From Cryoendolithus antarcticus (Eukaryota > Ascomycota > Dothideomycetes > Cladosporiales > Cladosporiaceae), in assembly GCA_002077065.1 (NCBI GenBank), contig NAJO01000010.1, forward strand, positions 992,001 through 1,056,000: DNA of 64,000 bases, given 5' to 3'. The notes beneath the pieces were generated by a model. The model saw only the letters and a program-made list of their open reading frames with translations. It ran no database searches and was not told the origin of the DNA. Position 1 is the stretch's first letter; each line of letters starts with the position of its first letter. Shown in pieces: positions 2,299-7,684 of this stretch. A program made the translations under genes and the position numbers.

Positions 2299-4620
2299 AT
2301 GCCAGTCGTCAAGGGCGGCGTCTGGACCAACATCGAAGACGAGATCCTCAAAGCCGCCATCTCCAAATACGGCCTGAACCAATGGGCCCGCGTGTCCTCG
2401 CTCCTCGCGCGCAAGACAGCAAAGCAATGCAAAGCCCGCTGGACCGAATGGCTCGACCCGGGCATCCGCAAGATCGAATGGAGTCGCGAGGAGGACGAGA
2501 AGCTGCTGCACTTGGCGAAGCTGATGCCCACGCAATGGCGGACCATTGCGCCAATAGTTGGCAGGACAGCGACGCAGTGTCTGGAGCGATATCAGAAGCT
2601 TCTTGATGAGGCGGAGGCGCGGGAGGGGGAGGAGATGGGCTTAGGTGGGCCAGAAGGCGGGGAGTCAGCAGCGCCGAGTGCGGATGATGTTAGGAGGTTG
2701 AGGCCGGGGGAGTTGGACCCGGAGCCTGAGAGTCGGCCTGCGCGACCGGATACGGCGGATATGGATGAGGATGAGAAGGAGATGTTGAGTGAGGCTAGGG
2801 CGAGGCTGGCGAACACGCAGGGCAAGAAGGCGAAGCGGAAGGCGAGGGAGAGGCAATTGGAGGAGAGCAAGAGGATGGCGCAGTTGCAGAAGAGGAGGGA
2901 GCTGAAGGCTGCGGGGATCAATATCAAGGTCACGACAAGGAAGAAGGGGCAGATGGACTATAATGCGGATATCCCGTTCGAGAAGGCGCCTGCGCCGGGG
3001 TTCTACGACACGCAGAAAGAGATGGCCGAGAATGAGAGGTCGAGAGAGATGTTCGATCCGCGGAAACAGCAGCTGGCGAATAAGAGGAAGGGCGATGCGG
3101 CGGAGGTGGAGGGACAGGAGCCGAAGAGACGGAAGAATGAGAAAGATGGTGGGACTGCTGCGTATGCTGCGGCGGCGAAGGCTGGTCAGTTGCAGAGAAT
3201 ACGCGAGGCAGAGCAGAGCTCGAAGCGAAGGGCACTAAATCTGCCCGCGCCCCAAGTCAGTGAGCACGAACTCGAGGATATTGTCAAGATGGGTCTGTCC
3301 GGAGATCGCGCGAGTGCGCTGGGCGACAACGACACCACGCGAGGTCTTGTGGGCAGCTACGGTAATGTTATCGGCGCTACACCTATGCGTACACCGCAAG
3401 CACCTGTTGAGGAAGACCGCATCGCCAATGAGCTGCGGAACGCTCGAGCACGCACAGAGACGCAATCAGTACTCTTTGGCGGCGAGAACACTCCCCTCCA
3501 CGAAGGCGGTGCGACGACAGGCTATGAAGGTGTCGCGCCGAGTAAGCAAATGTCGTCCACCCCGAATCCACTAGCAACCCCACTGCGACAACTGAACGGC
3601 GCAACGCCAATTCGAAATGGACCTAGCCAAACGCCTGCACGAGACGGTTTCAACTTGAATAACGCCACTCCTTCCACAGCACTTGTCAGCCAAACGCCCA
3701 GAGATCTGCGCTTAGCAGAACGAGCTTCGAAGAGCTCACTCCGTGGCGCACTTGCAAGCCTGCCCAGGCCCCAGGAAATGGCCTTCGAGCTCGAGCTCCC
3801 CGACGAGCAGCCAGAGCTCAGCGCTGAAGAGGCTGCTGCTATGGCTGCCGAGGACGCCGCGCTACGAGACAGAAGGGCTCAGCAGGCAGCGGATGATGCG
3901 GCGAGGGCGGATCTTGCACGACAGACGAAGGTCGTGCAGCGCGGCTTGCCGAGACCGAGTACGGTGGACTTCGCATCGCTGATGAAGAGCGCGAAGGCGA
4001 TTGAGGATCCGGTCGAGCGGCTGATAGCACAGGAGTCTGCGAGACTGATCGCCGCTGATGCGGTGAAGTTCGGTGGAGCACGTATTGCTAACCCGTCAGC
4101 AATACCTGCGGTCGAGCCGCTGGACGAGGAGACTGCAGATCGCGCGAGGATGGAAGTCATACTCGAGATGGGCCAAGACGCCGACCGCGCTCAGTTTGGA
4201 CAGGCCTTCGAGCGCGAGTGGGTTGCTGCGAGGGCGAACAAGCTGCTACCTGGCTACCCTGACGAGGATGAAGAAGATAGTACTGCCGATCTCTCGACTG
4301 CTTTCGACCGCACGCAAGGCGATATCAATACATCTGCTACCCGCAGCAGTGCGCTGGAGTCTAAGCTTCGCAAGATACATGGCGGCTACATTGATCGCGC
4401 TGGCAAGTTGCGGGCCAAGATCGGCGAAGCAGCGCTTGCTCTCGAAGGGCTCAAGGTGCAAGGCGAGACGTTGAGAGGCGTAGACTCGGTCGAGCAGGCT
4501 GTGCTTGTTGATCGACTGGAGGGTTTGCGCGAGGAGGTTACCTTTATCAAGAAGCGGGAGCGGGAGGCACAGGAGGAGTATCGGGTCAGGAGGGAAGAAC
4601 TTGCTGGGCTGGAGTCTTGA
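2299..4620 (+). CDS. cef1: pre-mRNA-splicing factor Cef1/Cdc5
   Basis: A 773-residue orthologue of Cef1/Cdc5, the Myb-type core subunit of the Prp19 (NineTeen) complex that is needed for spliceosome activation. Two Myb/SANT repeats fill residues 6-105 ([20 protein letters not shown] and [17 protein letters not shown]), with the family signature [15 protein letters not shown] between them and [16 protein letters not shown] at the end. A basic helical region (about 175-205) follows, then the Cdc5-specific [20 protein letters not shown] Thr/Pro-rich middle and a C-terminal coiled coil complete the protein. The start is the ATG just before PVVKGGVW, where family members begin; an upstream in-frame ATG at 2158 gives a non-conserved extension. 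No intron is apparent. Identification is very secure. Confidence 0.95.
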
Positions 4621-7042: not shown

Positions 7043-7514
7043 GACGATAGCGATCTGCCAATGAGGAGGAAACAGAGACTATGACTTGCCTACGACTTCC
7101 ACGCCTCAGCTTATGAAGTAGATGAAGCACCAACTACTCTCGCTCTGCAACACTGCTATCACCATCAATGGCGATGCCGGCAGACATACTCGCCTTGGCG
7201 TCGAGGTCTCTTTGACTGATGACCAACCGGGCTTGCCCAAATGCGGTCATGCCGCTGCAGAAGTGGTAGCAATTCGCGATCAGCTCGATTCGGTCCACAT
7301 GTCGGCCCATCGTCGGGCGGATAGAGGACCGCCTTGCCGCGACGTGAAAATACATAGGGCGCAACTTTATAGACCGATGTTTGGAGGCTGCGTGTTTTCA
7401 AGCTTAGTGCTGATGACTCTACGCTGGTTGAGACTCCCAGCGGGCATTGATGTAGGGCAAAGAAGATTGACTACGAGTATATGAGTATTAACGGCTCGCT
7501 CGGGAGTTACCGTC
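7043..7514. other. intergenic region upstream of the tRNA gene
   Basis: Holds the 5' flank of the MFS gene and of the tRNA gene. Short open frames are present but lack protein-like composition. I see no further gene. Confidence 0.5.
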
Positions 7515-7551
7515 GCTCCCTTGACGCAGTGGCTAGCGTGCCGTTCTTATA

Positions 7552-7579
7552 CATGCGCCTGCGGGACCTGTATGAAGCT
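7552..7579 (+). other. canonical tRNA intron (between positions 37 and 38)
   Basis: A 28-nt insertion one base 3' of the anticodon, the place used by the tRNA splicing endonuclease. It contains GTAT (7570-7573), which can pair with ATAC overlapping the anticodon (7549-7552), as expected for intron-anticodon pairing in pre-tRNA. In yeast the intron of tRNA-Ile(UAU) is required for Pus1 to modify U34 and U36, so an intron here is expected for this isoacceptor. Confidence 0.85.
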
Positions 7580-7609
7580 ATGCGGAAGTCGTGAGTTCGA
7601 CCCTCACAG

Positions 7610-7661
7610 GTAAGCGCGCGTCTCATTCTTCTTCTCTATCATTGATACTAACAACCACCAG
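7610..7661 (+). other. putative spliceosomal intron inside the tRNA acceptor stem
   Basis: A 52-nt segment with donor CAG|GTAAGC, a pyrimidine-rich middle (TCTCATTCTTCTTCTCTATC), a perfect TACTAAC branch point (7646-7652) and acceptor CCACCAG ten bases after the branch A. Length and signals match the protein-gene introns around it (47-101 nt). It splits the 3' acceptor strand after its second base. Removal restores a perfect seven-pair acceptor stem and an A discriminator. There is no run of four T inside, so Pol III could read through. Confidence 0.82.
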
Positions 7662-7684
7662 GGAGCAAGGGCGATGGTCATTTC

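Follow-up and report, generated by a model that had tools for sequence, protein, structure and literature searches.

The window, by which we mean the whole 64,000-nt stretch analyzed here (NAJO01000010.1, positions 992,001-1,056,000), comes from Cryoendolithus antarcticus (Dothideomycetes, Cladosporiales, Cladosporiaceae), whose genome as we examined it comprises 46.97 Mb in 149 contigs; we take Rachicladosporium antarcticum CCFEE 5527 to be another name for this fungus. A draft of R. antarcticum is described as 47.4 Mb with an N50 of 896 kb, from Illumina reads at 41x (PMC5502844). The window contains a tRNA-Ile(UAU) gene at 7515..7667, with the sequence and coordinates that a first-pass annotation gave it. 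Its parts and neighboring signals are listed below, where L032 denotes an uninterrupted twin of the gene on another contig.

7476..7484, forward strand: TATA-like element, a possible Pol III upstream promoter, 37 nt 5' of the gene
7515..7551, forward strand: exon 1, tRNA nt 1-37, with the anticodon TAT at 7548-7550; same letters in L032
7552..7579, forward strand: ordinary anticodon-loop tRNA intron of about 28 nt, the length deduced by taking the 73 nt of the mature tRNA from the total of 101 nt
7580..7609, forward strand: tRNA nt 38-67 including the T arm, with box B at 7593-7605, read from the sequence
7610..7661, forward strand: 52-nt spliceosomal-type intron between nt 67 and 68, delimited by the insert-free homeolog L032, blind excision and motifs
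7610-7615, 7646-7652 and 7659-7661, forward strand: donor GTAAGC, branch motif TACTAAC and acceptor CAG of that intron, from motif reading
7662..7667, forward strand: final exon GGAGCA, nt 68-73, the acceptor strand plus discriminator A, which pairs with 7515-7519 once spliced; same in L032
7685..7688, forward strand: TTTT, a likely Pol III terminator, 17 nt beyond the mature 3' end and the first TTTT from the gene start on

The ends of the anticodon-loop intron were inferred from the cloverleaf, and ARAGORN places it differently. The claim that every canonical tRNA position can be assigned holds up except in the anticodon stem, where a U31-U39 mismatch, also present in L032, means that not all positions are canonical, and the claim had passed over the anticodon-loop intron. 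Standard tools do not report the gene: ARAGORN returned no tRNA from the 64-kb window, and Rfam returned no match at gathering score to any family, group I and group II introns included, while a sub-threshold Rfam tRNA match at 7519-7610 scored 26 bits against a cut-off of 29. About 3 kb from the interrupted gene, at 2299-4617 on the forward strand, lies an intronless gene for the splicing factor Cef1/CDC5, a proximity that is likely a coincidence.

Splicing out 7610-7661, an interval that contains no TTTT, restores the tRNA, with 12/12 acceptor and T stem pairs formed in the spliced sequence versus 9/12 in the unspliced one. When we made every single excision of 20-120 nt and ignored splice signals, one product alone equaled the score of the spliced form, and it can be reached through five equivalent registers, one of which is GT..AG. 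By our own estimate, a random 52-nt insert with five registers to choose from would combine GTRNGY, a well-placed CTRAC and YAG roughly 5 times in a million. The best reading of this sequence is that the insert is a genuine U2-type spliceosomal intron in a nuclear tRNA gene. The only mRNA intron that we located, in the PRMT5 gene, lies within an inter-exon gap of 164 nt, longer than the tRNA introns, in which GTACGT, CTGAC and CAG occur. A strict intron-motif scan gave 5 matches in the window versus 5 in the reversed control, and 6 matches versus 1 in the control across 216 kb, counts that are equal or close to those of the controls.

The twin gene, L032 on contig C60, is a 101-nt tRNA-Ile(UAU) identical in all letters and lacking the insert. 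Its locus is syntenic with the window locus, the flanks being 85-88% identical across two ~1.3-kb stretches, and a DNA search of the genome with a 221-nt query found, at its sensitivity, exactly one match beyond the window gene itself, namely L032. Because this homeolog has the gene without the insert, the 52 nt are bounded independently of any splice signal. The earlier proposal that a spliceosomal-type intron splits the acceptor stem is supported by pairing, by blind excision and by this empty site. The first-pass annotation had also reasoned that an uninterrupted tRNA-Ile(UAU) elsewhere, together with a lack of spliced RNA from this locus, would make the gene a pseudogene; L032 supplies the first half of that argument. 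It likewise undercuts the statement that the spliceosome must now act on this particular precursor, a need for which Arg(UCU) and Glu(UUC) make the stronger case. Given the intact homeolog, the window gene alone could be dispensable, and it is the least demanding member of the set described below, yet this copy is probably spliced too. It shows 0 changes in 101 letters relative to L032, versus 12-15% in the flanks; such identity would be unlikely without constraint, a very recent insertion or gene conversion. Constraint is not provable from the window gene by itself, and our argument for it rests on six pairs of interrupted genes.

What had been described as a single intron landing in one tRNA gene turned out to be one of 21 spliceosomal-type introns in 19 of the 79 tRNA genes that we recognized, spread over nine positions and 11 isoacceptors. 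We found these genes by taking Rfam hits that end before the acceptor stem, then searching with DNA queries and box-B patterns and reading the surrounding DNA; 53 of the 79 came from Rfam and 26 were further additions. The inventory is incomplete, and since genes for Phe, His, Cys, Asn and Trp are among those that were not recovered, 19/79 is not a genome-wide fraction. Nor does the absence of introns that break box B count as evidence, because a box-B search is blind to them. Ten budding-yeast tRNAs used as DNA queries, in a search that was too strict, gave no match, and the Ala copies on C106 and C108, whose flanks are identical, may represent a single locus that entered the assembly twice. 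Many tRNA loci in this genome form diverged pairs, which is why we call them homeologs. The spliceosomal-type introns are distributed as follows (isoacceptor, position, genes affected).

Ile(UAU): 67/68, in 1/2 genes
Ile(AAU): 65/66, in 2/4 genes
Leu(UAA): 68/69, in 2/4 genes
Lys(CUU): 8/9 in 3/4 genes, two of those three also with 68/69
Arg(UCU): 68/69, in 2/2 genes
Asp(GUC): 51/52, in 2/4 genes
Glu(UUC): 63/64, in 2/2 full-length genes
Thr(UGU): 63/64, in 2/2 full-length genes
Ser(UGA): 62/63, in one of the pair L081/L033
Pro(AGG): 69/70, in 1/2 genes
Val(UAC): 11/12, in the sole Val(UAC) gene found

Four Glu(CUC) genes were recovered, none with a spliceosomal-type intron. Loci of unsure assignment (L072, L093, L111, L118, L119, L127, L131, L147, L148, L164/L192, L189 and L190) were excluded from the count. 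One of these, L093 (C60:637197-637243), retains the 63/64 intron and the 3' part of Thr(UGU), but neither a D arm nor a 5' end is recognizable in it, and the gene is probably broken. L148, L164/L192, L127, L042 and L072 are tRNA-like, with inserts of ~70-140 nt between the D and T arms that could be placed neither as ordinary tRNA introns nor as GT-AG introns, and the paired loci L118 (C81) and L119 (C83) have a box B with GCTAACGGTG..AG just 5' of it.

As a set, the inserts are uniform. All 21 are 50-58 nt long, which is too short for group I or group II introns, and all contain a YTRAY branch motif that ends 8-11 nt before the intron 3' end. The donor fits GTNNG in 20/21 and GTRNGY in 18/21, and the acceptor is CAG in 14 and TAG in 7. 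We picked the introns by eye with GT and AG in mind, so the counts of these ends are partly circular; the script imposed neither length nor branch motif. Boundaries that make no use of splice signals were available from eight comparisons with empty-site homeologs or intact paralogs (interrupted/intact): Ile(UAU) window/L032, Ser(UGA) L081/L033, Pro(AGG) L133/L116, Lys(CUU) L062/L063, Asp(GUC) L088/L146 and L137/L121, Ile(AAU) L058/L060, and Leu(UAA) L055/L034. In blind excision of 20-120 nt, scored by pairing alone, no product outscored the GT-AG one in 15/15 genes tested (three Lys genes and the Val gene were left out). That product was the sole best in 9/15, one of three in 4 and one of 18 in one; Asp L088, with 2172 equal products, was uninformative. 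With this result, we set chance aside as an explanation for the inserts. Arg and Asp genes reach 11/12 stem pairs when spliced rather than 12. ARAGORN recognizes 7/19 interrupted genes unspliced and 19/19 spliced, two of the latter with the wrong anticodon.

The exons of the six interrupted pairs differ by 6 substitutions in 512 aligned letters, versus 47/298 letters in the introns with their ends removed (p = 7e-16 for exon versus intron divergence), and the flanks differ at 67/299 and 75/329. All 6 exon differences sit in the anticodon-loop intron, so the mature letters are unchanged. The Ile(AAU) pair contributes no intron divergence, since only 1/48 inner letters of its introns differ. Of the two Lys(CUU) homeologs, L062 (C73) carries the 8/9 intron but lacks one in the anticodon loop, and L063 (C94) shows the reverse; in the anticodon stem, L062 has a compensatory A28-U42 where L063 has G28-C42. 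A restored cloverleaf and constrained mature letters are what functional nuclear tRNA genes would be expected to show, and both are present here, the constraint in the six pairs.

The signals around the genes are consistent with Pol III transcription. The first TTTT lies 6-40 nt beyond the mature end in 19/19 interrupted genes, so that all 19 have the arrangement anticipated for Pol III, with none before the 3' end and one soon after. The introns themselves contain TTTT in 0/21 cases, which is only mildly unusual, as shuffles average 3.4 of 21 and give zero in 2.6%. TATA-like elements are found upstream of 14/19 interrupted and 25/45 uninterrupted tRNA genes, compared with 2.4% of 2000 random window stretches.

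We considered whether the interrupted genes might instead be pseudogenes, spare copies into which inserts have fallen while the uninterrupted copies alone do the work. Intact copies do exist for Ile(UAU), Ile(AAU), Leu(UAA), Lys(CUU), Asp, Ser(UGA) and Pro(AGG), broken copies occur in this genome (L093, which lacks its 5' part, and L189 and L190, which show only a 5' half within 401 nt), and the review PMC4090602 states that insertions in eukaryotic tRNAs have mostly been regarded as pseudogenes. Yet this hypothesis does not predict mature letters that stay constant while introns and flanks diverge, the compensatory pair in L062, or a window gene without a single change between diverged flanks; neither does it predict TATA-like elements as common as those upstream of uninterrupted genes, and intact Arg(UCU) or Glu(UUC) genes were not found in our searches. 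We therefore regard it as improbable. Assembly or chance artefacts, for which one could point to the 41x Illumina draft (PMC5502844), would have to recur in 19 genes on many contigs and in both subgenomes, with six pairs sharing inserts whose sequences have since diverged, and this is the most implausible of the explanations that we weighed.

Two further hypotheses accept the inserts as introns but assign them differently. If they were non-canonical tRNA introns of the bulge-helix-bulge type, which the tRNA splicing endonuclease removes, they would have precedents at many positions in archaea, Cyanidioschyzon and nucleomorphs, as described in PMC4090602 and PMC3978253. However, in a simplified test, a four-pair helix at the intron ends is possible in 3/21, matching the shuffle mean of 3.0; uniform GT-AG ends, a branch motif and lengths of 50-58 nt are unexpected of that class; and none of the nine positions is the canonical 37/38, all of which leaves this reading very unlikely. 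It is also conceivable that splicing takes place solely in lncRNAs or in read-through products of Pol II that run over the tRNA genes, with no tRNA made from these loci, Pol II being the usual source of spliceosome substrates. Excision nevertheless restores the cloverleaf in each gene tested, and the internal boxes, the TATA-like elements and the TTTT just past the mature end fit Pol III, and we give this option slightly less credence still.

We thus favor the hypothesis, at a probability of about 0.86 as judged from sequence, that the inserts are U2-type introns forming a family-wide set and that the spliceosome removes them from Pol III precursors. Removal of nuclear tRNA introns is conventionally assigned to a dedicated endonuclease and ligase. 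Here, Pol III would transcribe the whole interrupted gene, as the internal boxes and the downstream T run suggest, and the spliceosome would remove the GT-AG intron in the nucleus, completing the acceptor or T stem. If established tRNA biology applies, RNase P, RNase Z and tRNA export would act only after this joining, and the tRNA endonuclease would then excise the separate anticodon-loop intron.

The origin of the window intron may lie in reverse splicing. The genome search with the 221-nt query, which contains this intron, found no further copy of it, and tRNA introns of different isoacceptors are no more alike among themselves than shuffles. Near-identical copies, as introner-like elements would leave, were thus seen neither for the window intron genome-wide nor among the tRNA introns. 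A direct-repeat signature at the inserts was considered and set aside, the number of equivalent registers varying between genes.

Whether the cell depends on this splicing is best judged from isoacceptors that lack an intact gene. A DNA query for Arg(UCU) found two genes, both interrupted, and an anticodon-arm pattern found 15 places, two of them the interrupted genes and none of the other 13 reading as a tRNA upon inspection. For Glu(UUC), a DNA query found two full-length genes, both interrupted, and two 5'-half matches. The latter, L189 (C129) and L190 (C78), show no 3' half within 401 nt and could be split, long-intron or broken genes. Since no uninterrupted gene was found for either isoacceptor, decoding of AGA and GAA should require this splicing, although an intact gene, for example a diverged one, may have escaped our incomplete inventory. 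We find it reasonably probable that the spliceosome is indispensable for tRNA processing in this fungus, with several isoacceptors, foremost Arg(UCU) and Glu(UUC), encoded only by genes whose acceptor or T stem is split by a spliceosomal intron, translation of AGA and GAA dependent on the splicing of Pol III precursors, and tRNA genes open to spliceosomal intron gain.

Spliceosomal-type introns in nuclear tRNA genes are real, systematic and, as far as we searched, undescribed. If our reading is correct, translation is tied to mRNA splicing through a spliceosome that acts on tRNA precursors, and many of the spliceosome's substrates require neither a cap nor Pol II. Maturation of these tRNAs would also be ordered, because a split acceptor stem must be joined ahead of end processing and export. 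Homeologs that differ in whether they carry such introns offer a natural series for studying intron gain and loss in genes that lack reading frames, and the interrupted genes are of a kind that standard tRNA annotation silently misses.

In the open-licence literature, we found no description of tRNA genes with spliceosomal introns, in agreement with the first-pass statement that no described nuclear tRNA of this kind was known, although such genes may be in print elsewhere. The main text of the tRNA intron review PMC4090602 contains no word starting with "spliceosom". Further literature cited in this work is PMC11782384, PMC11412873, PMC12730881 and PMC6461891. Interruptions away from 37/38, sometimes several per gene, are described for tRNAs of archaea, Cyanidioschyzon merolae and nucleomorphs (PMC4090602, PMC3978253), where they are attributed to the tRNA endonuclease or, for those of 3-24 nt in Guillardia, left unexplained; in contrast, GT-AG ends and branch motifs mark the introns of this fungus, and the helix that we tested is not enriched. 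Introner-like elements of Dothideomycetes (PMC4457414) likewise are spliceosomal introns gained recently within this fungal class, but their copies, spread over many genes, are nearly identical, whereas the tRNA introns are unlike each other across isoacceptors.

The closest comparisons come from other small structured RNAs, of which U3 and U6 are described in PMC5832005 as the only ones known to be often interrupted. Fungal U3 snoRNA introns are spliceosomal, but their host is not a tRNA and their sites fall nearly all in the 5' stem-loop. An mRNA-type intron is described in the U6 gene of fission yeast, Schizosaccharomyces pombe (PMC10484740). Both U6 genes that we found in C. antarcticus, L197 (C1) and L198 (C62), are interrupted, each by one intron, 56 nt long in one gene and 58 nt in the other; the signals GTGAGT, YTGAC and CAG are like those of the tRNA introns, and the length matches too. 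The U6 introns follow GGATGACA and begin GTGAGTTCGAACCCC, and GTGAGTTCGAACCCC resembles box B. They are of a known kind, in which a Pol III RNA is spliced by the spliceosome, and repeated intron insertion into fungal U6 genes is reportedly the subject of one study. Like the tRNA set, fungal U6 introns lie in a structured Pol III host RNA, have GT-AG ends and are of similar length; unlike them, the introns described here have tRNAs as their hosts and occupy many genes and nine positions, with up to two such introns in a gene beside the ordinary tRNA intron.
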